NCBI GenBank assembly: GCA_025934755.1
Contig: JAICWQ010000010.1
Coordinates: forward strand, 1-37,553
Source: Chthoniobacterales bacterium
GTDB lineage: Bacteria > Verrucomicrobiota > Verrucomicrobiia > Chthoniobacterales > UBA10450
Length of the DNA stretch: 37,553 bases
Direction: 5' to 3'
Shown one piece after another: positions 4,376 through 25,037 of the stretch; position 1 is the stretch's first letter; each line of letters begins with the position of its first letter. A program made the position numbers and the translations under genes. The notes below the pieces were generated by a model. The model saw only the letters and a list, made by a program, of their open reading frames with translations, was not told where the DNA came from and ran no database searches.

Positions 4376-5383
4376 ATGAGCTCACCCGACTCAACTCCGC
4401 CTGGCCTTGTCGACCTTGCCTCGGAACGCATCGGCGGCGTGGCGCTCGTTGCAAACGATGAGTTTTTCGCGGCGAAAGAAAATCTGCTCAAACCGGGTCG
4501 CGGAATTTTTATCCCGGATAAGTTCACCGATCGCGGGAAATGGATGGATGGGTGGGAGTCGCGGCGGCGCCGCAAACCTGGCAACGATTGGTGCGTAATT
4601 CAGCTCGGATTGCGCGGCGTGATCAAGCAGATCGATATCGATACCAATCATTTTCTTGGAAATCATCCGCCGTTTGCCTCGCTCGATGCGATTGCCAAAC
4701 CGGGGAACTTTCCGAAGACGATTGCCGCCATTGGAAAGCTTTCCTGGAAAGGGATTCTCAAAAAATCTTCTTTGAACCCCGGCTCGCAAAATCTGTTTGA
4801 AATCACGAGCGACAAGACTTGGACGCACGTCCGTCTAAATATTTTTCCAGACGGCGGCGTCGCCCGCCTTCGCGTTTACGGAATTGTGGTTCCCGACTGG
4901 AGTAATTTGAAACCGGGCAACATTATTGATCTGGCCGCGATCGAAAACGGCGGAGTGCCGCTCGCCTGCAGCGATATGTTTTTCAGCTCGATGACCAACC
5001 TGATCATGCCCGGCCGGGCGAAAAATATGGGTGACGGGTGGGAAACGAGACGCCGGCGCGGTCCCGGACACGATTGGATTATCTTGAGACTCGGCGCGCC
5101 GGGCGCGATCCGAAAAATCGAAGTGGATACCAACCACTTTAAAGGAAATTTCCCCGACAGCTGCTCAATCGAAGGTTGCAATGCGCCGGCTGCTTCGATC
5201 AAGGAGCTGATTGATGGCAACGTTCGCTGGCGCAAACTTCTTCCGAAAACAAAACTGCGAGCGAACGAGCGCCGGCTGTTTGAGCGGGAACTAGCCCGGA
5301 TCGACAACTGCACGCACGTGCGCCTCAACATTTATCCGGACGGCGGGGTGAGCCGATTGCGCGTGTGGGGAACGTTGGCATGA
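4376..5383 (+). CDS. alc: Allantoicase
   Basis: This 335-residue allantoicase hydrolyses allantoate to S-ureidoglycolate and urea. It is built from two homologous halves, as in the family. Half one has LVDLASERIGGVAL, a DGWESRRRR motif and DTNHFLGNHP; half two repeats these as IIDLAAIENGGVPL, DGWETRRRR and DTNHFKGNFP. Each half ends with a (T)HVRLNI(F/Y)PDGGV(A/S)RLRV motif. The ATG at 4376 follows a 50-bp spacer after the GxxExxY gene. A double hairpin separates it from allantoinase. Urea would need a urease or export, neither of which is in this window. Confidence 0.95.
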   Translation: MSSPDSTPPGLVDLASERIGGVALVANDEFFAAKENLLKPGRGIFIPDKFTDRGKWMDGWESRRRRKPGNDWCVIQLGLRGVIKQIDIDTNHFLGNHPPFASLDAIAKPGNFPKTIAAIGKLSWKGILKKSSLNPGSQNLFEITSDKTWTHVRLNIFPDGGVARLRVYGIVVPDWSNLKPGNIIDLAAIENGGVPLACSDMFFSSMTNLIMPGRAKNMGDGWETRRRRGPGHDWIILRLGAPGAIRKIEVDTNHFKGNFPDSCSIEGCNAPAASIKELIDGNVRWRKLLPKTKLRANERRLFERELARIDNCTHVRLNIYPDGGVSRLRVWGTLA

Positions 5384-5413
5384 TGGACGGATGCTCGATT
5401 TCAGAATAGGTAG

Positions 5414-5458
5414 GGGCCGTTGCCCTCAACGGCCCGCGGGCGATTGGGTCAATCGCCC
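5414..5458. repeat. Double-hairpin REP-like element
   Basis: Two perfect 9-bp hairpins stand in tandem. GGGCCGTTG at 5414-5422 pairs with CAACGGCCC at 5427-5435 across loop CCCT, and GGGCGATTG at 5438-5446 pairs with CAATCGCCC at 5450-5458 across loop GGT. The second hairpin is the same unit as at 11-32. It fills most of the allantoicase-allantoinase gap. No T-tract follows, so it is a poor intrinsic terminator and a better candidate for a dispersed REP-type repeat or an mRNA stabiliser. Confidence 0.85.
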
Positions 5459-5479
5459 TGCCTCATCGGTTAAACCGCT

Positions 5480-6787
5480 ATGGCTGATTTCGATCTAGTC
5501 CTGCGTGGTACCGAGCGCGACATCGGAATCATTGACGGCAAATTCGCCGCGCTCGGCGAAAATCTTCGCGGCATTGGGCGCGAGGAAATCGACGCGACGA
5601 AATTGGCGATCTTGCCGGGTGTAATCGACGCCCACGTTCATTTCAACGAACCGGGCCGGACAGACTGGGAAGGTTTCGACAGCGGTTCGCGCGCCTGCGC
5701 AGCCGGCGGAACAACCTGCGTGTTCGAAATGCCGCTCAATGCCCATCCGCCAACGATCGACGGCCCGAGCTTTGATGCGAAGAAAACCGCGGCCGAGGAA
5801 AAATCGTTCGTCGATTTCGGTTTGTGGGGCGGATTGGTTCCCGGAAATCTCGATCAACTTGAAACGCTGCGCGATCGCGGAGTGATCGGCCTGAAAGCAT
5901 TCATGTGCGATAGCGGGATTGAGGATTTCACTCGCGTCACAATGTCAGTCTTGGATGAAGGAATGAAACGCGCGGCGCAGCTCGATCTTCTCGTGGCCGT
6001 TCATGCGGAGTCGCAAGAGCTGACCCAGCAACTCACCAAACAAAAAATCGTCGAAGGAAAAACAAGTGTGCGCGATTACCTCGAGTCGCGTCCGATCGAG
6101 GCCGAGTTGGATGCGATTAAATGCGCGATCGATTTAGCCGGGGAAAGAAAATGTCGTTTGCATATTGTGCACGTTTCGTGCGGCCGCGGCGTTGCATTGG
6201 TCGCCGAGGCGCGAGCAAATGGCGTTGACGTTTCCTGCGAAACTTGCCCGCACTATCTCCTTTTTACCGCTGCCGACATGGAACGGCTTGGGGCGGTCGC
6301 AAAATGCGCCCCGCCATTGCGCTCCGATCAAGATCGACAATCGTTGCGCGCTCGGCTCGGTGACGTGACAACAATCGGGTCCGATCATTCGCCGTCGCCC
6401 TGGCCGATGAAGGAGCGCGGGAATTTTTTCGAAGTGTGGGGTGGAATTTCCGGGTGCCAGCATTTGGCGGCATTGTTGCTCGACAGCGGAATTTCGCTTG
6501 AGCGAGTTGTGGATTTGACGAGCAAGCAAGTCGCCGAACGCTTTCGGGTGAATCAAAAAGGCGAGATCACCATCGGCAAGGACGCCGACTTCATGATCGT
6601 CGATCTTAAGGCCGAGGAAAACATAACGGGCGATTCACTACTCTATCGGCATCAACACAGTCTCTATGCCGGCCGGCGCCTGCGCAGTCGCGTTACTCAA
6701 ACGGTTTTGCGCGGGCAAACGATTTTCGGCCAGGGAAAATGTTCACCGAAGCCAGTCGGCCGGTTTGTCCGGCCCAATCGCACATAA
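5480..6787 (+). CDS. allB: Allantoinase
   Basis: This 435-residue cyclic amidohydrolase opens the hydantoin ring of allantoin to give allantoate. Metal ligands are visible: H52 and H54 in DAHVHFNEPGR, the lysine to be carboxylated K139 in GLKAFMC, H175 in AVHAES, H231 in LHIVHVS, and the aspartate in GSDHSP. The EPGRTDWEGF and GGTTCVFEMPLN segments are typical of allantoinases rather than dihydropyrimidinases. The ATG at 5480 follows the double hairpin. It acts immediately before allantoicase although it is encoded after it. Confidence 0.95.
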   Translation: MADFDLVLRGTERDIGIIDGKFAALGENLRGIGREEIDATKLAILPGVIDAHVHFNEPGRTDWEGFDSGSRACAAGGTTCVFEMPLNAHPPTIDGPSFDAKKTAAEEKSFVDFGLWGGLVPGNLDQLETLRDRGVIGLKAFMCDSGIEDFTRVTMSVLDEGMKRAAQLDLLVAVHAESQELTQQLTKQKIVEGKTSVRDYLESRPIEAELDAIKCAIDLAGERKCRLHIVHVSCGRGVALVAEARANGVDVSCETCPHYLLFTAADMERLGAVAKCAPPLRSDQDRQSLRARLGDVTTIGSDHSPSPWPMKERGNFFEVWGGISGCQHLAALLLDSGISLERVVDLTSKQVAERFRVNQKGEITIGKDADFMIVDLKAEENITGDSLLYRHQHSLYAGRRLRSRVTQTVLRGQTIFGQGKCSPKPVGRFVRPNRT

Positions 6788-6796
6788 ATCTTCACG

Positions 6797-8200
6797 TTGC
6801 GGGCGGCGATCAGTATCATTGATGATTTAACGCCGACTGCTTTGAATCCCGCCACCAGTTTCGAATCGAACGAAATCGCCGGTCTCATTTCCGAGTTGAG
6901 CGAAGCGAGCAAGGTTTTCATGCGCCGTTATCCGGGCGAATCGAACCGGCGCCAGGCCGTGCACACCGTTTATGGCGGCGCGCATCTTTTTAAAACCGAT
7001 TCGGCGAAAAAACTCGGCGCGGTCGCGCTCCGCTCGCTGGAAGAATACGCGCCCGATGCGGCAAGTCTTGCTCGTGCAATCGGCCTGTCAGGTGACACTC
7101 AATTCGCCCAACGGCTTTACGCTCGCATCGTGGAAAAGCTTCGACGCGAGCCGGTGGAAGATTTCCGTCTCGATTTTGAAGACGGCTACGGAAATCGCGC
7201 GGACGCTGAGGAAGACGGTCATGCTGCCTCGGCTGCGCGAGAAGTCGGGCAAGGATTGGCAATCGGAAGCCTGCCGCCGTTTATTGGGATTCGAATCAAA
7301 CCGCTGAACGAGGATCTGCGCGCGCGAAGCATCCGAACGCTCGACGTCTTCATTACGACGTTGGTTCAAAAGACAAATGGAAAATTGCCCGCCAATTTCG
7401 TGATCACTGTTCCGAAAGTGCAAATTCCGGCGCATGTCACGGCAGCGGTTCGGTTGTTTGAAATTCTCGAACGAAAAAATGGATTGTCTGCCGGCGCGCT
7501 GAAGATCGAGCTGATGATCGAAACCCCGCAGGCGATTATTAACGAGCGCGGAGCGGCCACCGTGATGTCGCTGGTGGATGCCGCGGAAGGCCGATGCGGC
7601 AGCGTGCATTTTGGCGTTTACGATTACACTGCGTCGTGCGGAATCACCGCGAAATATCAGGCGATGGGGCACCCTGTTTGCGATCTCGCGCGCCAGATCA
7701 TGCTCGTCTCACTCGCCGGCACCGGGATTCATCTTTCCGACGGCGCGACAAACATTTTGCCGGTCGGTCCGCATCGCGCCACCGAAGATCGGGCACTGAC
7801 AAAGGGGGAGCTCGAAGAAAATCGAAACGCGGTTCATCAAGCGTGGGCGCTTGGCTTCAACGACAATCTGCACTCGCTCCGAACCGGATTTTACCAGGGC
7901 TGGGACCTGCACCCTGCGCAGTTTGTCACTCGTTACGCCGCGGTTTATCAATTTTTCCTGGAAGGTCTCGACGCCGCTTCAAATCGTCTGAAAACTTTTG
8001 TCGAGAAAGCCGCACTCGCGTCGTTGTTCGGCGATGTCTTTGACGACGCCGCAACCGGCCAGGGTCTTCTCAACTTTTTTCTGCGCGGAATGGCTTGCGG
8101 CGCGATCACGGAAGACGAAGCGCTTGCCACTGGCTTGACGCTGGAGGAATTGCGCTCACGTTCGTTCCTCAAAATTTTGCAGGGCCGGAAGCAACAATGA
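6797..8200 (+). CDS. DUF6986 family, aldolase/malate-synthase-like protein
   Basis: This 467-residue protein has a TIM-barrel look related to the HpcH/HpaI-type aldolases and citrate lyase beta. Visible blocks are VHTVYGGAHLF, the acidic RLDFEDGYG, FVITVPKVQ, IELMIETPQAI (likely metal-binding Glu) and GSVHFGVYDYTAS, with HPAQFVTRY near the C-terminus. It has been database-annotated as phosphoenolpyruvate kinase, which the motifs do not support. The start shown is a TTG 9 bp after the allantoinase stop; no better start is seen upstream. The family is linked to purine catabolic loci in actinobacteria (from memory). A role in handling the glyoxylate or ureidoglycolate end-product is plausible but unproven. 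Confidence 0.75.
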   Translation: MRAAISIIDDLTPTALNPATSFESNEIAGLISELSEASKVFMRRYPGESNRRQAVHTVYGGAHLFKTDSAKKLGAVALRSLEEYAPDAASLARAIGLSGDTQFAQRLYARIVEKLRREPVEDFRLDFEDGYGNRADAEEDGHAASAAREVGQGLAIGSLPPFIGIRIKPLNEDLRARSIRTLDVFITTLVQKTNGKLPANFVITVPKVQIPAHVTAAVRLFEILERKNGLSAGALKIELMIETPQAIINERGAATVMSLVDAAEGRCGSVHFGVYDYTASCGITAKYQAMGHPVCDLARQIMLVSLAGTGIHLSDGATNILPVGPHRATEDRALTKGELEENRNAVHQAWALGFNDNLHSLRTGFYQGWDLHPAQFVTRYAAVYQFFLEGLDAASNRLKTFVEKAALASLFGDVFDDAATGQGLLNFFLRGMACGAITEDEALATGLTLEELRSRSFLKILQGRKQQ

Positions 8201-8229
8201 CTGCCGTAATCGAACAATTGTCTGCAGTT

Positions 8230-8392
8230 GGGGAGCGCGCGCGCCTCGCGTGCTGTTTCCGGCGACCTCGGTGGAAACTCTCGTGCACGGAATTCTCTGA
8301 CCGATTGAAAATAGCTGATACTCCACATTTAAAGTCAGATCTCTTCGGCGAGGCGCCGAAGAGTGCACGCGAGGGCGCGTGCGCTCCCCAGA
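8230..8392. repeat. Pair of inverted REP-like copies upstream of xanthine dehydrogenase
   Basis: The left copy (8230-8276) begins GGGGAGCGC and continues GCGCCTCGCGTGC, followed by a short hairpin (GTTTCC/GGAAAC). The right copy (8343-8392), read on the minus strand, begins GGGGAGCGCACGCGCCCTCG and carries a perfect hairpin CTTCGGC-GAGGC-GCCGAAG at 8343-8361. The copies face each other across about 65 bp. The right copy ends 1 bp before the xdh ATG, so the leader of that gene is made of repeat sequence. Confidence 0.8.
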
Positions 8393-8393
8393 G

Positions 8394-11300
8394 ATGAGCG
8401 CGATCGAGTTTCGGTTGAACGGCGAACCGATCCGGCTCGACGCGGTTTCTCCGAACACCACGTTGCTCGATTGGTTGCGGGCGAATGGATTGACCGGCTC
8501 GAAGGAAGGTTGCGCGGAAGGTGATTGCGGCGCGTGCTCGGTTGCGATTGTCGATCTCGATAGTCGCGGGGAACGCACTTATCGGGCGATCAACAGTTGT
8601 CTCGTGCCTCTGGTGTTGATGACCGGTCGCGAGATCGTCACGGTCGAGGGTGTCGCCAACGGAAAATTGCATCCGGTGCAACAGGCGATGGTGAACAATC
8701 ACGGGTCGCAATGCGGTTATTGCACGCCGGGCTTCGTGATGTCGCTCTTCGAAGGGTATTACCGAAAGGATTTGAAGACGCGAACGCAATTGGACGAGCA
8801 ACTCGCGGGAAATTTGTGCCGCTGCACCGGGTATCGCCCGATCAACGCCGCCGCCGCAGAAGCATTTGCCTGCAGGTCCGCCCGTCGGACGGACTCGTCC
8901 GGTGGCGAGATTGATAACGATCGATTCGAAGCTCCGTTGAAAAACGGCCGGCTCAATCTCGGTTCGGTTCGTTACGCACGGAACGGCGAAAAATTTCTGC
9001 GGCCGACATCCATGGCCGAGTTGTTCGCGTTCCTGGCCGAATTTCCTGAAGCCCGATTGATCGCAGGCGCGACTGAGTTAGGACTCGATATTACGAAGCG
9101 GTTCCGAAGGTTTCCCGCGTTGATCTCGGTCGAAGCCGTTCCCGAGTTGACCCAAATCGGCAGAGCGGAAAAAGAATGGCGCGTCGGCGGCGCAGCCACC
9201 CTGACCGCGATTCAGGATCAACTCGGCCCGGAATTTCCAGCGCTCGCGGAAATGCTTTATCTGTTCGGGTCCCGGCAAATCCGGAATCGGGCGACGATGG
9301 GTGGGAATCTCGTGACGGCATCGCCGATTGGTGATTCGGCGCCGGTGTTGCTGGCGCTGGACGCCAGCGTGGTCCTTGCTTCCGCCGCGCGCGAACGCAG
9401 TTTGCCGCTGGAGAACTTTTTTGTCGGTTATCGAAAGACGGCGCTCGAGCCAGGAGAAGTTCTTAAGACGATCGTTATTCCGAGAGGAACAAACCGGCGG
9501 ACGAGATTCTATAAAGTCAGCAAACGCCGCGAGATGGACATCAGCACCGTGGCCGGATGTTTCACAATCGAACTCGATGGGAAACAAATCGTGAGACATG
9601 CGCGGCTTGCTTACGGCGGCGTGGCGCTGACGCCAGTGCGCGCTCGCAGGACCGAAGACGCGTTGGTCGGAAAGAAATGGGGCGCGGAAGTATTAACGTC
9701 GATCTTGCCGGCACTGGAACGCGAGTTCACGCCGATCTCGGATGTGCGCGGAAGCAAATCTTACCGGCAACGACTCATCTCGAGTTTGTTCGAGAGATTC
9801 CTCCATGAATCGATGTCCGAATCCGTTTCATTAACATCGGACTTCAATCCAATGTCAGATCGTGATCGTAACGCAGCAGCCGTTTCGGTGCGCGACGACT
9901 CGATATCCACCGGACTGAAGCCCGGTGTTAGCGAAAAAGCCCTGCCGCACGAGAGCGCACATAAACACGTTACCGGCCAAGCAATTTACGTGGACGACGC
10001 CACGGTCGGGGAGGGAATGCTGGAAGTCTGGCCAGTTTGTTCGCCGCACGCGCGCGCGAAAATCCTTCGGCGCGATGTTTCCGCGGCGAAAAGAATGCCG
10101 GGGATCAACGCTGTGCTGATGGCCGAAGATGTGCCGGGCTTAAATGACGTCGGCGCGGTCCGCCACGACGAGATCCTCCTGGCGGACAAGGAGATTTCCT
10201 ATCACGGCCAGATCGTCGCTCTGGTCGTCGGCGAAACGCCGGAGGCGTGTCGCGCGGCCGCGGCGAAGGTCGTGGTCGAGTACGAACCGCTGCCGGCAAT
10301 TTTCACGATTCAGGACGCGATCGATCAAAAAAGTTTTCATACCGAAGCAAATCATATCGAGCGCGGCGATTTTGAAGGAGCGTTTGCCGATTCGCCCTAC
10401 AAGCTGGAAGGCGAGTTCGCGATGGGCGGTCAGGACCATTTCTACCTCGAGACGCAGGCTGGCTGGGCCGAGCGCGGAGAAGACGGAACGATTTTTGTGT
10501 GTTCTTCCACCCAGCATCCGTCCGAAGTGCAGCACATCGTCGCGCATCTGCTCGCGCTGCCGATGCATAGTGTGGTTGTGCAATGTCCGCGAATGGGCGG
10601 CGGGTTTGGAGGAAAAGAAACCCAAGCCGCAATGCTCGCCGCCCTGGCCGCGCTCGGAGCGTCGAAAACCGGTCGCAAAGTCCGCGTTCGATTCAATCGC
10701 GACCAGGACATGATGATCACCGGAAAGCGGCATCCATTTCTGGCGAAGTTTCGCGTTGGTTACGACCGCGAAGGCTTGCTCCTCGCGGCGAAGATCGACC
10801 TTTATTCAAACGGCGGCTGGACGCTCGATCTTTCACGCGCGGTGACGGATCGCGCGGTCTTTCACCTCGACAACGGTTATTACATTCCGAACGTCCAGTT
10901 CAAAGGGTTCGTCGCCAAAACCAATCTCGCCTCGAACACGGCTTTTCGCGGATTCGGCGGCCCGCAGGGAATGTTGACGATCGAAGAGATCATGGATCGC
11001 CTTGCCCGTGAGCTCGGTCTTTCACCGGAGATTGTGCGGGCGAAAAATTTATATCGCGGGACCGGCCCGACCAACACCACGCATTACGGCCAGGAAATCG
11101 AGAACAACCGTCTGCAGCGGATTTGGAAGGAACTGATCGAGACGAGCGATTTCAATTCGCGTCGGAAAACCCTCGGCGAATGGAATTCGAAGAACAAACA
11201 TCGCAAACGCGGTATTGCGATCACGCCGGTGAAGTTCGGCATCTCATTTACGACCACGCATCTTAATCAGGCCGGTGCCCTGGTGCTTCTTTATCAAGAC

Positions 11301-12266
11301 GGCACGGCGCAAGTAAATCACGGTGGCACGGAAATGGGTCAAGGCGTTCACACCAACATTGCAGCGGTCGCCGCGCGCGAACTCGGACTTTCCATCGATC
11401 GGGTGCGAGTGATGCCCACCCAAACCGACAAAGTTCCGAATACGTCAGCAACCGCGGCCTCCTGCGGAACAGATTTGAATGGCGCGGCAGTCAAAAACGC
11501 CTGCGATACGCTGCGGACCCGGCTTTTGCCATTCGCGATCGAAATGCTCGGCGAGAAAAATGGGCGGGCGCCGGCTGAAGACAAGCTCCAGTTTTTCAAC
11601 AATCGGTTTTGCGATGTCGACGTTCCCGAGTCGGCGCTGAGTTTCGCGGAGTTAGTTCAGCGGGCCTACTTCAACCGCACGAGTCTGAGCGCGACCGGTT
11701 TTTACAAAACCCCGCAAATTTATTTCGATCGCGACACGGGACAGGGGAGGCCGTTCCATTATTTCGCGGTCGGCGCCGCAGTTTCGGAAGTTGAAATCGA
11801 CGGCTTCAGCGGAATGGCCCAAGTCACCCGCGTCGACATCCTGCATGATGCGGGCGACGTGATAAACGCCGGGGTGGCGCGCGGCCAGGTCGAAGGCGGA
11901 TTTGTTCAAGGAATGGGTTGGCTGACTGCAGAAGAGTTGATCTGGGACACGGATGGTAAATTGCTTACCCATTCGCCGGACACTTACAAAATCCCGGCAG
12001 TCGGCGACACGCCTAAGATTTTTAACGTGGAATTTTTGTCGGAAGCGGCGCAACCGGATGTAATTCACGGTAGCAAGGCGGTTGGTGAGCCGCCGTTGAT
12101 GCTGGCAATTTCGGTGCGGGAAGCGATCCGGGACGCAATCGCAGCCTTTGGCCAGCCGGGCGGACAAGTGCTGCTTTCAACGCCGGCCACTCCGGAAGCA
12201 ATTTTCATGGCGATCGGTCAACGGTTGGCGTCGCCGAAAGAATTGGCGGCTGTGCCGGCGAAATGA
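8394..12266 (+). CDS. Xanthine dehydrogenase, single-chain (2Fe-2S, FAD and molybdopterin domains)
   Basis: This roughly 1290-residue protein has the eukaryote-like one-chain layout. Residues 1-165 hold two 2Fe-2S clusters (C40, C45, C48, C69; C107, C110, C142, C144). About 200-470 is the FAD domain with MGGNLVTASPIGDSAP. From about 520 to the end is the molybdenum domain. Residues known to define xanthine over aldehyde substrates in bovine XDH are kept: Glu in GGGFGGKE, Arg in NTAFRGFGG, Phe in GISFTT and SATGFY, and the catalytic Glu in KAVGEPPLML. It should oxidise hypoxanthine and xanthine to urate. The ATG at 8394 abuts a repeat. Both interdomain linkers contain palindromes. Adenine deaminase overlaps its stop by 4 bp. 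Confidence 0.96.
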   Translation: MSAIEFRLNGEPIRLDAVSPNTTLLDWLRANGLTGSKEGCAEGDCGACSVAIVDLDSRGERTYRAINSCLVPLVLMTGREIVTVEGVANGKLHPVQQAMVNNHGSQCGYCTPGFVMSLFEGYYRKDLKTRTQLDEQLAGNLCRCTGYRPINAAAAEAFACRSARRTDSSGGEIDNDRFEAPLKNGRLNLGSVRYARNGEKFLRPTSMAELFAFLAEFPEARLIAGATELGLDITKRFRRFPALISVEAVPELTQIGRAEKEWRVGGAATLTAIQDQLGPEFPALAEMLYLFGSRQIRNRATMGGNLVTASPIGDSAPVLLALDASVVLASAARERSLPLENFFVGYRKTALEPGEVLKTIVIPRGTNRRTRFYKVSKRREMDISTVAGCFTIELDGKQIVRHARLAYGGVALTPVRARRTEDALVGKKWGAEVLTSILPALEREFTPISDVRGSKSYRQRLISSLFERFLHESMSESVSLTSDFNPMSDRDRNAAAVSVRDDSISTGLKPGVSEKALPHESAHKHVTGQAIYVDDATVGEGMLEVWPVCSPHARAKILRRDVSAAKRMPGINAVLMAEDVPGLNDVGAVRHDEILLADKEISYHGQIVALVVGETPEACRAAAAKVVVEYEPLPAIFTIQDAIDQKSFHTEANHIERGDFEGAFADSPYKLEGEFAMGGQDHFYLETQAGWAERGEDGTIFVCSSTQHPSEVQHIVAHLLALPMHSVVVQCPRMGGGFGGKETQAAMLAALAALGASKTGRKVRVRFNRDQDMMITGKRHPFLAKFRVGYDREGLLLAAKIDLYSNGGWTLDLSRAVTDRAVFHLDNGYYIPNVQFKGFVAKTNLASNTAFRGFGGPQGMLTIEEIMDRLARELGLSPEIVRAKNLYRGTGPTNTTHYGQEIENNRLQRIWKELIETSDFNSRRKTLGEWNSKNKHRKRGIAITPVKFGISFTTTHLNQAGALVLLYQDGTAQVNHGGTEMGQGVHTNIAAVAARELGLSIDRVRVMPTQTDKVPNTSATAASCGTDLNGAAVKNACDTLRTRLLPFAIEMLGEKNGRAPAEDKLQFFNNRFCDVDVPESALSFAELVQRAYFNRTSLSATGFYKTPQIYFDRDTGQGRPFHYFAVGAAVSEVEIDGFSGMAQVTRVDILHDAGDVINAGVARGQVEGGFVQGMGWLTAEELIWDTDGKLLTHSPDTYKIPAVGDTPKIFNVEFLSEAAQPDVIHGSKAVGEPPLMLAISVREAIRDAIAAFGQPGGQVLLSTPATPEAIFMAIGQRLASPKELAAVPAK
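8869..8900. repeat. Small in-frame palindromes in the xdh linker between FeS and FAD domains
   Basis: Three small dyads are packed together: CCTGCAGG at 8869-8876, GTCCG/CGGAC at 8876-8890, and GGAC-TC-GTCC at 8891-8900. They encode the low-complexity linker just after the second 2Fe-2S motif (ACRSARRTDSSGG), where homologs vary in length. This is consistent with an in-frame palindromic insertion, but each stem is short. Confidence 0.45.
9834..9927. repeat. In-frame palindromes in the xdh linker between FAD and molybdenum domains
   Basis: Two hairpins lie in the coding linker. ACATCGGA (9834-9841) pairs with TCCAATGT (9848-9855) with one mismatch, and CACCGG (9908-9913) pairs perfectly with CCGGTG (9922-9927) around ACTGAAGC. 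The encoded stretch (STGLKPGV and surroundings) sits between the FAD domain and the HVTGQAIYVDD start of the molybdenum domain. It looks like repeat sequence carried as a tolerated protein linker. Confidence 0.55.
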
Positions 12267-13972
12267 GACAGATCGAACACAAACTCGCGGTTGCGCGCGG
12301 CGAGAAACCTGCCGAAAAAGTCTTCAAGAACGCGCAAGTCGTCAATGTCCTGAGCGGTGAGATTCATCGCGCGAACATCGCCGTCGATGGCGGCCGGGTG
12401 ATTGGCTTTGGAGATTACGAGGGGAACGAGGTTATCGATATTGGCGGGGCGTTTCTGGCGCCGGGTTTAATCGAAGGCCATTTCCACGTTGAAAGCTCAA
12501 TGCTGACAATTCCGGAGCTGGTGCGCGCAGTGACGCCGCATGGCACCGCCGCGATGGTGATCGATCCGCACGAATACGCAAACGTTCTCGGGATGGACGG
12601 AATTCGCTACGTCCTGGAATCGAGCAAGAATTTGCCCATCGATTTCTTTATCATGTTGCCCTCATGCGTTCCGGCAACTCATTTGGAAACTGCGGGCGCG
12701 CGTTTTACGGCAGACGATCTCGCTCTCATGATCGCCGATGAGCGCGTGGCCGGGGTGGCGGAGATGATGAATTATCCCGGAGTTTTTTTGGGCGCCGAAA
12801 GTGAACTGGCCAAAATCGAAGCCGGCAGAGGAAAAGTGATTGACGGGCACGCGCCAGGGTTGCGCGGCCGAAATTTGAACGCGTATGTGCTCGCGGGCGT
12901 TCGCTCCGATCACGAGAGCACGAACCTGGAAGAAGCGCACGAAAAACTCCGACTCGGCATGCATTTGCTTTTGCGCGAAGGCAGCACCGAACGAAATCTC
13001 GAAGATATCGTCGGGTTGGTGACGCCGCAGAATTCCGCGAACTGTTCGTTCGCGACAGACGACAAATTGCCAGGGGACCTGGTGAGCGAAGGACACATCG
13101 ACCATTCGATTCGCAAGGCGATTGAATTCGGGGTCGCTCCCGTGACCGCGATTCAAATGGGAACGATTAATACGGCGCGGTATTATCGGCTGCGAAACCA
13201 TGGAGCGATCGCGCCGCGATTCTGGGCGGATTTTGTGGTGGTGGACGATCTAAAGTCTTTTCGGGTGCGGCGAACCTACAAGAAAGGAAAACTCGTCGCC
13301 GAGGACGGAAACTATCTCGCGCCGGCGCCGGGCAAAATCGATCAACCGCGAAGCACGATGAATTTGAGTTATGACAAAGAGGATTTCGCGGTGGCGGCAA
13401 ACGGAGCGAAACAAATTCGAGTGATCGAGATTGTGCCGAAACAAATCGTCACCAAATCCAAAATCGAGTCACCGAAGGTGGTCAACGAACAGATTGTTCC
13501 CGATCTCGATCGCGACATCCTCAAGTTGGTCGTGGTGGAACGGCATCGCGCAACCGGAAACGTGGGCGTCGGATTCATTCGCGGTTTCGGGCTCAAACGC
13601 GGCGCGCTGGGATCAACCGTCGCGCACGACGCTCACAACGTCGTCGTGGTCGGAACAAACGATCACGACATCGCCGCGGCGATCAAAGCTTTGGAGAAAA
13701 TGCGCGGCGGCCAGGTCGCAGTCGAAGACGGCAAAGTAACAGCAGCTCTGCCACTGCCGATTGCCGGTTTGGTTTCCGATCAATTGCTCGAAACGGTGAT
13801 CGGAAATATTTCGGAACTGAACGCAGCAGCAGCAAAGTTGGGAACGACTCTGGATGCCCCCTTCATGACCCTTTCGTTTGTGAGTCTTTCGCCGATTCCG
13901 GAATTGAAATTGACCGATCAGGGCCTGGTTGATGCGATCAATCTGAAGTTGACCGACGTGATCGTCCGGTGA
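12263..13972 (+). CDS. ade: Adenine deaminase
   Basis: This 569-residue adenine deaminase of the amidohydrolase superfamily converts adenine to hypoxanthine, which the upstream xanthine dehydrogenase can oxidise. Metal-site features are LIEGHFHVESSM (H73, H75), IDPHEYANV and the C-terminal-barrel ATDDKLPGDL motif. The extra C-terminal domain with NVGVGFIRGFGLKRGA and SLSPIPELKLTDQGL is typical of full-length bacterial Ade. Its ATG overlaps the xdh stop (ATGA), so the two are translationally coupled. It closes the plus-strand purine operon. Confidence 0.95.
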   Translation: MRQIEHKLAVARGEKPAEKVFKNAQVVNVLSGEIHRANIAVDGGRVIGFGDYEGNEVIDIGGAFLAPGLIEGHFHVESSMLTIPELVRAVTPHGTAAMVIDPHEYANVLGMDGIRYVLESSKNLPIDFFIMLPSCVPATHLETAGARFTADDLALMIADERVAGVAEMMNYPGVFLGAESELAKIEAGRGKVIDGHAPGLRGRNLNAYVLAGVRSDHESTNLEEAHEKLRLGMHLLLREGSTERNLEDIVGLVTPQNSANCSFATDDKLPGDLVSEGHIDHSIRKAIEFGVAPVTAIQMGTINTARYYRLRNHGAIAPRFWADFVVVDDLKSFRVRRTYKKGKLVAEDGNYLAPAPGKIDQPRSTMNLSYDKEDFAVAANGAKQIRVIEIVPKQIVTKSKIESPKVVNEQIVPDLDRDILKLVVVERHRATGNVGVGFIRGFGLKRGALGSTVAHDAHNVVVVGTNDHDIAAAIKALEKMRGGQVAVEDGKVTAALPLPIAGLVSDQLLETVIGNISELNAAAAKLGTTLDAPFMTLSFVSLSPIPELKLTDQGLVDAINLKLTDVIVR

Positions 13973-18644: not shown

Positions 18645-18800
18645 TTGGCGTCGATAGTTGCAAAGGAGGGACGAAGGGAATGCCGATGCGATCAAGAGTA
18701 GGACGCTCGGAGATTGTCCGTCCAAAGGCGGGCCGCGGCGTTCACGCAGGGTTAACATGACTTCGAGGGACGAGTTTGGGCTCGGGCCAATCTCTTGAGA

Positions 18801-21314
18801 GTGAAACACCTGCGAGCGCGCCTCGTTCAATGCTTTATCGTCGGCGGTGCGAGCCTGTTTTGGGCAGTTGAAGTCATGGCCGCGACACCGCCGCTGTTTC
18901 CCGCTGCAATGGACGCGAGCGAAATTCAACTTCGGCTCGAGAAGCTGAATGTTCTCGGCCGCGTTCTTTACCTCGCCGCGCATCCCGATGACGAAAACAC
19001 CACGTTGATTTCGCTTTGGGCTAACGGATCGCTTTACGATGCCGGTTATCTTTCGGTCACCCGCGGTGATGGCGGACAAAATCTTCTTGGGCCCGAGCTG
19101 CGCGAAAAACTCGGGGTGATCCGGACGCAGGAACTCCTGGCAGCGCGACGGGTCGATCATGGCCGGCAGTTTTTTACCCGCGCAGTTGACTTCGGATTCT
19201 CCAAAAATCCTGAGGAGACGCTCCGATTTTGGGATCGGGACAAAATCCTTTCAGACGTTGTCTGGGTCATGCGGCGCTTTCGGCCCGACGTTGTCGTGAC
19301 CCGTTTTAGCCCGGAAGACAGGCTTACCCATGGCCATCATACCGCTTCGGCCATCCTGGCCACGGAAGCGTTCCCGGCTGCAGGCGACTCGAAGAAATTT
19401 CCCGATCAACTCGCGTTGGTTAAACCGTGGCAACCCAAGCGGCTGGTCTGGAATACTTCGCCTTTTTTCTTTACCAATCGCAAACTTCCATTCGATCCGG
19501 CTGGCCTGACAACCCTGGAGGCTGGCGGCTATAACCCGCTCCTCGGTAAGGCGTACACCGAGATGGCTGCCGCCAGCGTGAGCATGAACAAAAGTCAGGG
19601 TGTCGGAAGTCCGGCCAGGAGAGGCGCGCGCACGGAATACTTCAAGTTGCTCGCCGGCGACGCAATGCACGGGGGACTGTTTGATGGTGTCGACACGAGC
19701 TGGAGGCGAGTTGCGAATTCGAATGCGGTCGCGACGAAGATTGCGAAAGTGATTACTGACTTTCGTCCGATCGATCCGTCTGCCTCTGTTCCCGGGCTTC
19801 TCGGTGTCCGCGATGAATTGGATCAGTTAAAGGACGATGATTGGGTGCCTCAGAAAAAAGCAGAAGTGGATCAAATCATTGCCGCGTGTCTTGGTCTGCA
19901 TCTGGAAGCTTCGACCGAAACTCCCGTCGTAAGCCCGGCCCAGGAGTTGCCGGTTAAGCTCGAGGCGATTAACCGCTCAAATGTTGCGGTGGATTGGATT
20001 TCATATCGTTTGGCATCGGCTCAGCCCACGTCGGTCGGAGAATCGCTCCCGCTCGACAAATTGATTACAAAAGAATTTAAAGCTCCGATTCCCGCCGGCA
20101 CGCAATATTCGCAGCCGTACTGGCTTCGTCACCCTGCGACGGTGGGAACGTTTACCGTCGAGAATCAGGATTTGATCGGAAGGCCGACCAATCCGCCGCA
20201 TTTCCCCGCGGAAATCACCATCAAGGTCTCCGGTCACGAGATCACTTACACGCTGGACACGAAATATCGCACCGTGGAGCCGATCGCGGGTGAAGTCCGC
20301 TACGACATCGTGATCGCGCCTCCGGTGTTCGCCAATTTTGTCGACCCGGTTTTGGTTTTTCCAAATGCGAATGCGAAGAAGGTCCGAGTCCGCGTGCTGG
20401 CTTCGGACGGTGCTGTGAAAGGCGACGTTCGCCTGTCTGCGCCCGAGGGGTGGGCCGTTTCGCCAAGCTCGATTCCGGTGGATTTGAAAAACGCGAATGC
20501 CGAAAAAGACGTTGAGTTTTCGGTTCGTCCTCCAGCGAATCCTGGACAGGCAACGTTAAAGGCCGGGGTCACGGTTGGCGGGCAAAGTTTCTCGTTTTCT
20601 CGTGAAAGGATCGCCTATCCACATATTGGGGTCCACATTTTGATGCCGCCCGCGGAAGCGAAACTCGTTAGGGCAGATATTCAGACCAAGGGCGATCTGA
20701 TTGGTTATATTCCAGGGGCGGGGGACGATATCCCGGCGGCTCTGCAACAAATTGGTTACACTGTGAAACAGCTCGGTGAAGGCGAGTTGGGACCGGAAAA
20801 TCTTCGCCAATTTACCGCGATCGTTCTCGGCGTCCGCATTTTCAATTCCCAGGACCGGATCGCGACCTGGTTGCCGGCGTTGATCGAGTATGCAAAGGGC
20901 GGCGGTGTGGTTGTGGTCCAGTACAACACGACGGCGGACCTAAAATCGACCGAGTTTGGACCTTATCCGCTTCAACTCTCGCGCGATCGCGTAACCGACG
21001 AGACGGCCGAGGTCAAGATGCTCGCGCCCGATCATCCGGTCCTGAACACGCCCAACAAAATCACGGCGCGGGATTTCGACGGATGGGTTCAGGAACGCGG
21101 TCTTTATTTTCCGGACAAATGGGATTCGGCCTGGGTTCCGATTTTATCGAGCCATGACCCGAATGAGAAACCGCTCGATGGCGGGTTGCTGGTGGCGAAG
21201 GTTGATAAAGGCTACTTTGTCTACACTGGGTATTCGTGGTTCCGGCAGCTTCCGGCGGGCGTTCCTGGCGCTTACCGGATTTTCGCCAACATGGTTTCGT
21301 TAGGCGGAAAATGA
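18801..21314 (+). CDS. Exported PIG-L/LmbE deacetylase with ThuA-like C-terminal domain
   Basis: This roughly 837-residue protein begins with a signal peptide (MKHLRARLVQ..., cleavage near VMA-A). The PIG-L zinc deacetylase domain follows: AAHPDDENTT near residue 60, SVTRGDGGQN, and GHHTAS near 180 as the third ligand. The middle is beta-rich, possibly two NEW3/Ig-like modules (PVKLEAINRSNVAVD; VRVRVLASDGAV). Residues about 635-830 resemble a ThuA/GATase-like Rossmann domain (DDIPAALQQIGY, YAKGGGVVVVQYN). I prefer the GTG at 18801; a TTG at 18795 is in frame. It is far larger than BshB or MshB and exported, so an amidase acting on cell-surface or external N-acetyl sugars is more likely than cytoplasmic thiol synthesis. 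Its stop overlaps the next start. Confidence 0.85.
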   Translation: MKHLRARLVQCFIVGGASLFWAVEVMAATPPLFPAAMDASEIQLRLEKLNVLGRVLYLAAHPDDENTTLISLWANGSLYDAGYLSVTRGDGGQNLLGPELREKLGVIRTQELLAARRVDHGRQFFTRAVDFGFSKNPEETLRFWDRDKILSDVVWVMRRFRPDVVVTRFSPEDRLTHGHHTASAILATEAFPAAGDSKKFPDQLALVKPWQPKRLVWNTSPFFFTNRKLPFDPAGLTTLEAGGYNPLLGKAYTEMAAASVSMNKSQGVGSPARRGARTEYFKLLAGDAMHGGLFDGVDTSWRRVANSNAVATKIAKVITDFRPIDPSASVPGLLGVRDELDQLKDDDWVPQKKAEVDQIIAACLGLHLEASTETPVVSPAQELPVKLEAINRSNVAVDWISYRLASAQPTSVGESLPLDKLITKEFKAPIPAGTQYSQPYWLRHPATVGTFTVENQDLIGRPTNPPHFPAEITIKVSGHEITYTLDTKYRTVEPIAGEVRYDIVIAPPVFANFVDPVLVFPNANAKKVRVRVLASDGAVKGDVRLSAPEGWAVSPSSIPVDLKNANAEKDVEFSVRPPANPGQATLKAGVTVGGQSFSFSRERIAYPHIGVHILMPPAEAKLVRADIQTKGDLIGYIPGAGDDIPAALQQIGYTVKQLGEGELGPENLRQFTAIVLGVRIFNSQDRIATWLPALIEYAKGGGVVVVQYNTTADLKSTEFGPYPLQLSRDRVTDETAEVKMLAPDHPVLNTPNKITARDFDGWVQERGLYFPDKWDSAWVPILSSHDPNEKPLDGGLLVAKVDKGYFVYTGYSWFRQLPAGVPGAYRIFANMVSLGGK

Positions 21315-21439
21315 GCGAGCGCCTCGAAGAACAGTTGCAGGACGAGGAACCGCGTTGGTCCCGGGCCTACGGTTTTGTCCTCGCCTTCTTCGCGCTCGAG
21401 ATTTTGCTTCTTTATCTTTTTACCGTCCGGTTTTCGTGA
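21311..21439 (+). CDS. 42-residue single-helix membrane protein in the symporter operon
   Basis: A short open frame starts at ATG 21311, overlapping the PIG-L stop by 4 bp (ATGA), and ends at 21439, overlapping the symporter GTG start by 4 bp (GTGA). The product has a charged N-terminal half (MSERLEEQLQDEEPRWSRAY) and one hydrophobic helix (GFVLAFFALEILLLYLF), ending TVRFS. The double overlap argues strongly that it is translated. By analogy with small subunits encoded beside some sodium:solute symporters it may be an accessory subunit of the transporter. It has no recognisable family. Confidence 0.75.
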   Translation: MSERLEEQLQDEEPRWSRAYGFVLAFFALEILLLYLFTVRFS

Positions 21440-23118
21440 GCCGGATCGACTATCTCGTCCTCTTCGCCACTGTCCTGGCGATCCCGCTCTACGGACTGTG
21501 GCGAACACGTGGACATGAATCGTTAGGGCATTATCTCAAGGGTGACAAAACCATTCGCTGGGGGACTATCGGACTGTCCGTTCTCGCGACTCAGGCGGGG
21601 CCGATCACCTTTCTTTCCATGCCAGGGCAGGCATATGAGAGCGGCATCGGTTTTATCCAAAACTATTTCGGCCAACCGCTCGCGCTCCTGGTGGTGTGCG
21701 CCGTCTTCGTGCCGATCTACCAAAAGCTGAAAGTTTTCACCGCTTATCAATATCTCGGGCAGAGATTCGATCGAAAAACGCAAATGCTGGGCGCTTTTCT
21801 CTTTTTAGTGCAACGCGGCCTTGCTGCCGGAATCACAATCTACGCCCCCGCGATTATTCTTTCCGCCATTCTTGGATGGCAACTGAATCTGACCATCTGC
21901 CTCGCAGGTGGCTTTGTGATCATTTACACCGTTGTCGGCGGCACAACGATCGTGAGTCTGACCCAGCGCTATCAAATGATGGTTATTCTCGCAGGAATGG
22001 CGGTCGCCTTCGGGGTGGTGATTTATCGACTAAGTCCCGATATCTCGTTCGGTCATGCGCTCGTGGTCGCTGGCAAGCTCGACAAATTGCAGGCGGTTGA
22101 TTTCTCACCCGATCCGCACAAACGCTACACCTTCTGGTCGGGAGCAATCGGCGGATTCTTTCTCGCTCTTTCGTACTTCGGGGCCGACCAGTCGCAGGTG
22201 CAGCGGTATCTGGCGGGGAATTCTCTGCGTTCGAGCCGGCTCGGATTGCTCTTTAATTCCGTCGTCAAAGTCCCGATGCAGTTTTTCATTCTTCTGCTCG
22301 GCGCGATGATTTTTATCTTTTATCAATTTGAGAAACCTCCGGTCTTTTTTAATCGTCCAGCCTACGAGCGCGCGATCGAGCATGGCGCCGGGCCGCAATT
22401 GAAGGATTTGGCGACAAAGGCCGATCAAGTCTTCGAACAAAAACGGGAAGCGCTGAGCGCGTACGCGGCCGCGCCATCGCCCGAGAACATGCAATCGATC
22501 CGAGCGCTTGAGGCGCAGACTCAGGCGGTGCGAACGGAGACCAAACAGGTTCTCAATCAAAACGGTGCTGATCCGCGGAGTAAGGAGTCGGATTATGTCT
22601 TTATTACCTTTATTCTGCACGAGTTGCCGCGCGGCGTTGTCGGCTTGCTCGTGGCCGTGATTCTCTGCGCCACCATGTCCGCAACCGCCGCGGCCCTCAA
22701 CGCACTTGGCTCAACTACCGTCGTCGACATTTATCGGCCGCTCCGCAGTTCAATCGCGAGCGACCATCATTATGTTGTCGCAGCCAGATTATTTACCGCG
22801 GCCTGGGGCCTGGTCGCGATCGGAGTCGCCTCCTTCGCCAACCTGGTCGAGAACCTGATTGAAGCGGGTAATATTCTGGGATCGGTTTTTTATGGAAGCA
22901 TTCTCGGTCTATTTCTCGTCGCCTTTTTTATCCGGAAAGTGCGCGGGTCGGCGGTTTTCTTTGCCGCATTGATCGCTCAGGCAATGGTGTTCATTCTCTT
23001 CTTCACCACCGGGATCGGTTACTTGTGGTACAACGCGATTGGCTGCGGCGCCGTGGTTATACTGGCGCCGGTCTTGGAGCGGTTAATATTCCGGGCCGAG
23101 CCAATGGAGGCTGCGTGA
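21436..23118 (+). CDS. Sodium:solute symporter (SSS family)
   Basis: This roughly 560-residue polytopic membrane protein begins at a GTG overlapping the small gene upstream. It has the 13-helix SSS pattern with GLSVLATQAGPITFLSMPGQAY in the first core helices, TAYQYLGQRF, and SYFGADQSQVQRYLAG, a typical SSS signature. AALNALGSTTVVDIYRP follows in a late helix. Between the helices at about 300-320 and 395 lies a hydrophilic, helical insertion (AYERAIEHGAGPQLKDL through QVLNQNG). The substrate cannot be told from sequence. Placement between a PIG-L deacetylase and bacillithiol-type genes suggests an amino sugar, a thiol conjugate or a precursor. Confidence 0.92.
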   Translation: MSRIDYLVLFATVLAIPLYGLWRTRGHESLGHYLKGDKTIRWGTIGLSVLATQAGPITFLSMPGQAYESGIGFIQNYFGQPLALLVVCAVFVPIYQKLKVFTAYQYLGQRFDRKTQMLGAFLFLVQRGLAAGITIYAPAIILSAILGWQLNLTICLAGGFVIIYTVVGGTTIVSLTQRYQMMVILAGMAVAFGVVIYRLSPDISFGHALVVAGKLDKLQAVDFSPDPHKRYTFWSGAIGGFFLALSYFGADQSQVQRYLAGNSLRSSRLGLLFNSVVKVPMQFFILLLGAMIFIFYQFEKPPVFFNRPAYERAIEHGAGPQLKDLATKADQVFEQKREALSAYAAAPSPENMQSIRALEAQTQAVRTETKQVLNQNGADPRSKESDYVFITFILHELPRGVVGLLVAVILCATMSATAAALNALGSTTVVDIYRPLRSSIASDHHYVVAARLFTAAWGLVAIGVASFANLVENLIEAGNILGSVFYGSILGLFLVAFFIRKVRGSAVFFAALIAQAMVFILFFTTGIGYLWYNAIGCGAVVILAPVLERLIFRAEPMEAA

Positions 23119-23119
23119 C

Positions 23120-23893
23120 GTGCCGACCCCGATAATTTGTTTTGGCCAGCAACCCTGCGGGATATTCCCCAAACGCTTTCTTTTCGCCAAGATAAAGACT
23201 GCGCGCCGGCTCCAGCGTGAGATCGGCGGAACGATTGTCTTTTTCTATCACGATAGCGATCACGACCCGCGCGAGACAAAGACGATTCTGCAAGATCGGC
23301 ACAGCGGACATAAAGCATCGGTCAATTTCGCATTCGAAAACAAAATCCAGAAACTCTACTCGCCCCTTTATCTGAAGCGGGTGGTCCCGGAATGGAAAAC
23401 AAAAATGGAACGGGTCTTGCCGGCGTATGTTGAGCGGAACCTCGTTGAGATTTTCAAAAGTATCGCGGGCAACACCGTCGCAGATTTCTGTCTGTCGATG
23501 TATGCCGGCATGGGTTTGATGGAAGGAATTAACGTCGCGCGTTCGAGCGAGGTCTCCTTTCGTTCAGCAGCTTGCGCGGTTGACGACTGTTTCGTCGATC
23601 TTCCATATGAAGGTGAGATTGTTCGGGCGCGCGCGCGCGATGGAAAATTCTGGCTGCACAAAGGTGGCGATAAGTTTATCGAAGTTCCGGCCCAAGATTA
23701 TGGATGCGAACAGGTCAGCCCAACCCGCGATACTCGATTTCGCTGGATGCAAAGCGTGATCCACTGCACCCATTATGTTAGCGGCGCGAGCGAGCAGGAT
23801 TACATCAATAAAGCGGACGGTCCCGGCGTGACTTTTGTTCGGCGCGAAGCAATCGACAATTCCGCCGACGCGTATATTGGCGGGAATGAATAA
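23120..23893 (+). CDS. Compact BshC-like protein (putative cysteine-adding enzyme)
   Basis: This 257-residue protein shares key motifs with BshC, the enzyme that attaches cysteine to glucosaminyl-malate in bacillithiol synthesis. The N-terminal FGQQPCGIFPKR parallels the GGQQAGLLTGP loop of BshC, FFYHDSDHDPRET parallels its VAGEDHDLDEIN motif, and HYVSGASEQDYI parallels the late FIAGPGEINYW. Canonical BshC is about 540 residues with a long C-terminal coiled coil; here that part is absent. The GTG start lies 1 bp after the symporter stop, and the end overlaps bshA by 8 bp. Context and motifs support a role in thiol synthesis, but activity of such a short form is untested. Confidence 0.7.
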   Translation: MPTPIICFGQQPCGIFPKRFLFAKIKTARRLQREIGGTIVFFYHDSDHDPRETKTILQDRHSGHKASVNFAFENKIQKLYSPLYLKRVVPEWKTKMERVLPAYVERNLVEIFKSIAGNTVADFCLSMYAGMGLMEGINVARSSEVSFRSAACAVDDCFVDLPYEGEIVRARARDGKFWLHKGGDKFIEVPAQDYGCEQVSPTRDTRFRWMQSVIHCTHYVSGASEQDYINKADGPGVTFVRREAIDNSADAYIGGNE

Positions 23894-25037
23894 CGAGCCT
23901 CTCCGAATTGGCATTGCCTGCTTTCCGCTCATCGGGGGGAGCGGAATTCTGGCGACCGCTTTGGGATCCGAACTCGCGCGACGCGGACATGAAGTGCACT
24001 TCTTCAGTTATGCGCGGCCGGTCCGGCTGGATACAGCGGAGGCACGACTTCATTTTCATCTTGTCGAACTTGCCCATCACCCGCTTTTTCCGTGCCCTGA
24101 TTACACGTTGCCTTTGGCAGTCAAGATGGCGGAGGTCGCCTCGACGGTTTCGCTCGATATCATTCACGCGCACTACGCGGTACCGAATGCGATGGCGGCG
24201 GTTCTGGCTGCGCAAATGTCGGGCGCTTCGCCAGGCATCGTTACTACATTGCACGGCACCGACACAAATTTGTTAGGCCAGGATCCGGCCTATCGCATGG
24301 CGATCGAATATGCGCTCGGCCAATCGGATGCGGTCACGGTCGTTTCCAAAAGCCTGGAGGAACAAACCCGCGAAACCCTTAACGTTTCGCGCGCTATCGA
24401 GGTCATTCCTAATTTCTTCACGCCTCGACCAGCTAGTCGCACTCGAGAAGAAGTTCGCACCGAGCTCGGCGCAGGGGACGGCGAATTCCTGATCCTGCAT
24501 ATGTCGAACATGCGATCCGGAAAAAGAATAGATCTTCTTTTGCAAACCTTAGCGGCGATGCGAACCCGAGATCGGACCCGATTGCTCATCCTGGCCGGCG
24601 AACCCATTCAGCCTTACGCGGAAATGATTGATCGCCTCGGTCTGAAGAAGCAGATCATCGTTCGGGAGAACGAACCGGCTGTTGAAGATTTTATCTCAGC
24701 CGCGGACGCCGGCCTTTACACGTCCGATTACGAAAGTTTCGGGCTTAGTATTCTGGAAACGCTCTACTTCGGAAAACCGATTGTTGCCTTTGATGTTGGA
24801 GGAATTCCGGAGGTAGTCGGCAACGCATATCCGCTTTATCCCTTTCCCAATGTGACCGCGCTCGCTTCCGCGATGGACAAGCTGGTTGAGTCTCCCGATT
24901 ACGCGCGAAGTCTCGGTGAGCAGGGGAGAAAGCACGTTGTCGAAAAATTCTCAGCGGACATCATCGTCGACCGCTACGAAACGCTCTACCGCCGGGTGAA
25001 AGACAAGAATCGCGAAGGGAAAGCACTCCAAAGGTAG
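23886..25037 (+). CDS. bshA: BshA-type glycosyltransferase (N-acetyl-glucosaminyl L-malate synthase)
   Basis: This 383-residue GT4 glycosyltransferase fits BshA, which joins UDP-GlcNAc and L-malate in the first step of bacillithiol synthesis. Diagnostic blocks are IGIACFPLIGGSGILAT at the N-terminus, HEVHFFSYARP, HAHYAVPNAMAA, TLHGTDTNLLGQDP and SDAVTVVSKSLEEQT. The GT4 donor site is seen as SDYESFGLSILE and GGIPEVVG. I chose the ATG at 23886, overlapping the BshC-like gene by 8 bp, because it begins exactly at the conserved N-terminus. The last codons and the stop lie inside a tRNA-3'-end-like repeat (25025-25049), so the gene end marks the border with the accessory region. Confidence 0.93.
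   Translation: MNNEPLRIGIACFPLIGGSGILATALGSELARRGHEVHFFSYARPVRLDTAEARLHFHLVELAHHPLFPCPDYTLPLAVKMAEVASTVSLDIIHAHYAVPNAMAAVLAAQMSGASPGIVTTLHGTDTNLLGQDPAYRMAIEYALGQSDAVTVVSKSLEEQTRETLNVSRAIEVIPNFFTPRPASRTREEVRTELGAGDGEFLILHMSNMRSGKRIDLLLQTLAAMRTRDRTRLLILAGEPIQPYAEMIDRLGLKKQIIVRENEPAVEDFISAADAGLYTSDYESFGLSILETLYFGKPIVAFDVGGIPEVVGNAYPLYPFPNVTALASAMDKLVESPDYARSLGEQGRKHVVEKFSADIIVDRYETLYRRVKDKNREGKALQR

Follow-up and report, generated by a model that had tools for sequence, protein, structure and literature searches.

What does a 42-residue reading frame do when it is lodged between the gene for a PIG-L/LmbE-type deacetylase and the gene for a sodium:solute symporter (SSS)? Such a frame lies within the 37,553-nucleotide stretch of DNA analysed here (the window), where it overlaps both neighbours (Table 1). 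In bacteria, transporters of the SSS family are usually regarded as working from one polypeptide, and a review of the prokaryotic members from 2021 uses none of the terms accessory, small subunit or MAP17 (PMC7918813).

Table 1. Features of the gene run around the small gene, in window positions
Feature	Position	Strand	Basis
PIG-L/LmbE-type deacetylase ORF	18795..21314	+	Pfam PF02585, E 1.5e-14
Putative Shine-Dalgarno-like AGGCGG ahead of small gene	21302..21307	+	read from sequence
ATGA, PIG-L stop and small-gene start, 4-bp overlap	21311..21314	+	sequence
Small gene, predicted membrane protein of 42 aa with one helix (14-41) and the W16-x3-Y20 motif	21311..21439	+	
GTGA, small-gene stop and SSS start, 4-bp overlap	21436..21439	+	sequence
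SSS (SLC5-type) sodium:solute symporter, 560 aa, GTG start	21436..23118	+	PF00474, E 5e-34; TIGR00813, 5e-62
Conserved 257-aa protein, family not assigned, between SSS and bshA	23120..23893	+	
bshA, first enzyme of bacillithiol synthesis, closing the gene run	23883..25037	+	TIGR03999, E 2.6e-105

A short coding gene and its family

The arrangement described in the original prediction is present in the sequence. The frame translates as MSERLEEQLQDEEPRWSRAYGFVLAFFALEILLLYLFTVRFS, 42 residues followed by a stop codon; both four-base joins are found where they were proposed, and Pfam matches confirm the neighbours as PIG-L and SSS proteins. Within the window, 24 of the 243 ATGA starts (~10%) reach an NTGA overlap after 30-60 codons. 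Overlap geometry alone is therefore weak evidence, and conservation had to decide whether the frame is a gene or a spurious product of that geometry and chance. The W-x3-Y motif is kept over ~270 homologues in two phyla, pN/pS is 0.194 in frame compared with 1.15 and 3.1 in the other two frames (155 close pairs; 0.08 for the symporter), and divergence by codon position is 0.14/0.04/0.35. In addition, control genes gave no comparable frame (0/112, see below). The small ORF is a coding gene under strong purifying selection, and the probability of a spurious origin, which these results refute, is close to nil. By comparative sequence evidence, the gene specifies a conserved and separate product.

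Members of the family built around this gene are ~30-59 residues long, with a variable polar N-terminus, the near-invariant W-x3-Y motif and one predicted transmembrane helix. In 240 of the 272 members, the C-terminus lies 27 residues from the tryptophan. Among 225 members with this standard tail, the consensus is W-[RK]-x-x-Y-x-x-[VLA], leading into a hydrophobic helix that ends in an F/Y-rich, T/S-containing tail; this set was chosen for W-x3-[YF], so its 100% tryptophan figure arises by construction. A wider alignment of 57 diverse members has the tryptophan in at least 90% and an invariant tyrosine.

The single transmembrane helix attributed to the window protein is borne out by one hydrophobic stretch (best 19-residue window GFVLAFFALEILLLYLFTV, mean hydropathy 2.35) and by AlphaFold2, which models one main membrane-length helix with a core pLDDT above 90. 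Around W-x3-Y, Lys and Arg number 1.8 per protein, compared with 0.14 for Asp and Glu and with 0.6 in the last five residues. Following the positive-inside rule, this enrichment suggests an N-in, C-out topology.

A scan of the 57 diverse members against Pfam-A and NCBIfam at E 0.05 reveals no curated family that covers them, and a profile of them finds no family match among PDB chain sequences at E values up to 10. Single members gave isolated, sub-threshold matches to DUF2976, the EYxxD small membrane protein, IcmG and others, which were set aside. A search of the open-access literature found no paper on a PIG-L/SSS operon or the small protein. As judged from these sequences, the window protein defines a new, so far uncatalogued family of single-helix membrane proteins. 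The concept of such a protein is ordinary; the family itself is strongly supported, widespread, apparently undescribed and tied to a specific symporter clade, and it adds to the very short genes absent from Pfam and NCBIfam.

Linkage to the symporter and to PIG-L

Searching 147 related genomes with the single window sequence detected the small protein in 36 and the symporter in 50. Reading upstream of each symporter recovered small ORFs that the short query had missed, including those of Flavobacteriales with ~50% symporter identity. The set was widened with Bacteroidota and Opitutaceae-type genomes to 290 distinct symporter orthologues, each with 250 bp or more of upstream sequence. The search that the original prediction proposed, for a matching micro-ORF ahead of symporter genes in relatives, was clearly positive: a profile detects one before 272 of the 290, across Verrucomicrobiota and Bacteroidota, and a few further orthologues are preceded by a diverged one-helix ORF. 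The same procedure applied to 112 other genes of the window and related loci returned none with an upstream small ORF above the cut-off.

Independent searches for the two genes in 200 genomes of one family agree in 198 (both genes in 120, neither in 78; Fisher p ~9e-54). One genome, G1002, has the symporter alone, starting 62 bases from a contig end, and another, G983, has the small gene alone. All 24 small-gene profile matches in 388 verrucomicrobial genomes adjoin an SSS gene. On a tree of 285 symporters, presence of the small gene is ancestral, with scattered losses or relocations; the plasmid collection contains no symporter homologue. The small gene is linked almost exclusively to this SSS clade, in both genomic and phylogenetic terms.

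PIG-L is the other recurrent neighbour, and its position was scored in the 208 loci whose upstream flank reaches 1.2 kb or more: it lies within 700 bp in 168, farther away in 13, and is absent nearby in 27. Of 238 PIG-L/small-gene junctions, 51 show the 4-bp join seen in the window, and in 49 of these a 4-bp overlap is found on the symporter side too. Its prevalence as upstream neighbour fits a small protein that serves PIG-L as a membrane partner or anchor, whose helix would keep the secreted deacetylase attached to the inner membrane or link it to the symporter for direct product hand-over. The same reading accommodates G1178, G1257 and G1261, three genomes that encode the small protein after PIG-L and the symporter at a separate site. 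However, 14 of the 27 genomes without a nearby PIG-L carry a full-length copy elsewhere, and in 13 of these 14 it is the symporter that the small gene has remained beside. Most of the remaining genomes belong to the 37-42% clade and lack a PIG-L orthologue at E 1e-20 but still carry the small gene beside SSS (for example G301, G196, G522, G341, G325, G440, G289 and G432). Judged by gene neighbourhood, the most constant companion of the small gene is the symporter, and the association is maintained independently of PIG-L. A role primarily as PIG-L partner is accordingly rather improbable; the three genomes with the small gene after PIG-L leave room for a bridging role, which the protein may have on top of its role with SSS. 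Loci L242, L245, L248, L251 and L395 represent a distant symporter clade (~40% identity) with the small gene and no PIG-L orthologue, and several of them lie beside gltX.

The small gene is separated from SSS in G204 and G425 as well as in the three genomes above, with a weaker case in G1185. In two genomes the small gene stands by itself; in one of these, G204, it sits beside gltX at a position where relatives also keep the symporter. These relocations, together with the junctions, bear on the possibility that the frame is a leader or translational coupler, in which translation through the overlap sets symporter expression and the peptide is functionless. Four-base overlaps are classic coupling signals, the small gene/SSS junction is the identical 4-bp overlap in 201 of 290 relatives, and the window symporter has a GTG start. 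Nevertheless, selection acts on the amino acids, as seen in the pN/pS ratio, the W-x3-Y motif and the 27-residue tail, and spacing to the symporter varies from the 4-bp overlap to gaps of 3 to ~100 bp. Retention of the gene when it is separated from either neighbour points to a product and argues against a leader, a reading that is largely refuted and very improbable. At the gltX locus of G204, the small gene remains and the symporter lies 15 kb away. At loci L392, L393 and L396 (about 1498-1635), the small gene comes after PIG-L without an adjoining symporter, which the same genome carries at another site.

Seven SSS-bearing genomes have no small gene detectable by profile (G312, G286, G263, G294, G1095, G1134 and G150), which indicates that the gene is neither universal nor strictly obligatory. 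The original prediction named, as the finding that would count against it, relatives in which the two neighbouring genes are intact and the small frame is not. Such relatives exist, rarely, as two scattered losses: PIG-L directly abuts SSS in G286, G263, G294 and G312, overlapping it by 4 bp in the first three, which form one clade, and these four genomes have no copy elsewhere. Scattered loss from an ancestral presence means that the small gene is dispensable, not that it is non-coding. Loci L234, L235 and L239, where PIG-L and the symporter share a 4-bp overlap and the small gene is missing, are examples of natural loss.

Proposed function

The 42-residue protein is probably a single-pass inner-membrane protein that acts as a dedicated accessory subunit of the adjacent SLC5-type symporter, a reading that draws on gene linkage and on analogy. 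The unrecognised small subunit of the original prediction is well founded as regards linkage (272/290) and the lack of a curated family; physical binding, like orientation, the effect on transport and the substrate, is something we infer. The W-x3-Y segment with its flanking Lys and Arg would face the cytoplasm and the short C-terminus the exterior. The transporter would most likely receive the helix on its outer, non-core side and be stabilised or activated by it, much as human SGLT2 is by MAP17. Through the 4-bp overlaps, translation of the small protein could be coupled to that of the transporter, yielding matched amounts. In most lineages, the transporter may work together with the product of the upstream gene, a secreted PIG-L-type deacetylase that presumably frees an amino compound for the symporter to import.

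Alternatively, the protein could be a regulator or quality-control adaptor instead of a stoichiometric subunit, binding conditionally, or protecting the transporter from a membrane protease or delivering it to one, in the manner of MgtS, MgtR or AcrZ. Its size and topology fit the small bacterial transporter regulators covered in a review (PMC10710835), and its loss from seven genomes suggests that the need for it is modulatory and not catalytic. Against this, translational coupling is constant and co-occurrence nearly perfect, which speaks for two proteins made together constitutively, not under particular conditions, and makes a purely regulatory role improbable.

If the accessory-subunit reading is true, a one-helix partner found across two phyla would make part of the SSS family a two-protein machine and provide a compact bacterial model for the dependence of SGLT2 on MAP17. 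It would also serve as a warning that such symporters may be inactive when expressed alone.

Symporter model, known analogues and the wider locus

Both sequence and model place the partner gene in the SSF profile and the SLC5 fold. Its AlphaFold2 model, built from a shallow alignment of 29 rows, has a 13-helix core with a pLDDT of 71 and a pTM of 0.69, and for this reason only the helix count and the global fold are used. Whole-length structural alignments give Z scores of 32.8 with NIS, 31.6 with SiaT and 31.4 with SMCT1. Matches to SGLT1 and SGLT2 from the MAP17 complexes (Z ~28) end near chain residue 550 of more than 660, so that a counterpart of their C-terminal TM13 seems absent from the model at this pLDDT. 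The apparent lack of this helix raises the idea of a split transporter, a 13-helix symporter without the SGLT-type C-terminal TM13, in which the small protein would supply the missing helix in trans with the same predicted N-in, C-out orientation. This model-based proposal is doubtful; if true, a single-helix SLC5 subunit would be an ancient bacterial arrangement, independent of or preceding animal MAP17. Mean-field DCA of 260 paired sequences (Neff 168, 579 columns) returned top intra-symporter pairs unlike contacts, and inter-protein pairs were therefore not interpreted, coevolution being uninformative at this depth. Two core helices of the model are also separated by an inserted ~70-residue helical hairpin (symporter residues ~307-375; 22354-22560), a possible docking site for PIG-L.

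Several small co-encoded partners of SSS proteins are known, namely DUF4212 (the TIGR03647/03648 pair), DUF997 (YhdT-PanF), DUF485 (YjcH-ActP) and DUF3311 (MctP-type). They resemble the present protein in being small membrane proteins encoded directly beside an SSS gene, but are longer and have two or more helices, whereas it has one hydrophobic stretch and one predicted membrane-length helix. None of the four appears among the Pfam-A and NCBIfam matches of the 57 diverse members (E 0.05), and the symporter scores 26.5 bits against the DUF4212-partner model TIGR03648, which has a cut-off of 320.8.

The closest functional analogue appears to be MAP17 (PDZK1IP1), a one-helix protein that binds TM13 of human SGLT2 as its essential auxiliary subunit (PMC10803289) and also serves SGLT1. 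The likeness lies in a single helix partnered with an SLC5-type symporter, here by genomic and phylogenetic partnership; it concerns how the proteins would work rather than kinship. Unlike MAP17, the small protein is bacterial, operon-encoded and shorter, and the TM13 on which MAP17 docks seems to have no counterpart in its symporter. No MAP17 chain was retrieved by the 57-member profile from the PDB, an absence that is weak evidence with 41 positions. AcrZ, MgtS, MgtU and SgrT, described in the review of small transporter regulators, are likewise tens of residues long, mostly with one helix, and alter activity or stability; their targets differ, being RND, P-type, phosphate or PTS transporters. 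In the passages of that review considered here, the sole entry under the SSS heading is a transporter regulated by a PII protein (PMC10710835).

The genes around the pair offer a lead on pathway. The PIG-L ORF, 839 aa when counted from the first possible start codon (the actual start may differ), has an apparent N-terminal signal peptide and the metal-site motif AHPDDE; its top NCBIfam match, sub-threshold at 1.6e-10, is the mycothiol conjugate amidase Mca. Downstream, bshA scores 352 bits against a TIGR03999 cut-off of 274. This Mca-like PIG-L and bshA would fit a bacillithiol role, which stays a lead because the genes downstream differ in Bacteroidota loci that share the three-gene set. The 257-aa protein has no Pfam or NCBIfam match and carries the motif ICFGQQPCG...FFYHDSDHDPRET. 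In the relatives from Verrucomicrobia that were compared, its gene likewise sits between SSS and bshA, an order seen in L061, L065 and L074, and may belong to the same transcription unit; the protein is possibly a bacillithiol-pathway enzyme. Elsewhere in the window, positions 4376-13972 hold purine/allantoin catabolism genes, encoding allantoicase, allantoinase, a DUF6986 protein, a xanthine dehydrogenase-type molybdoenzyme and adenine deaminase.
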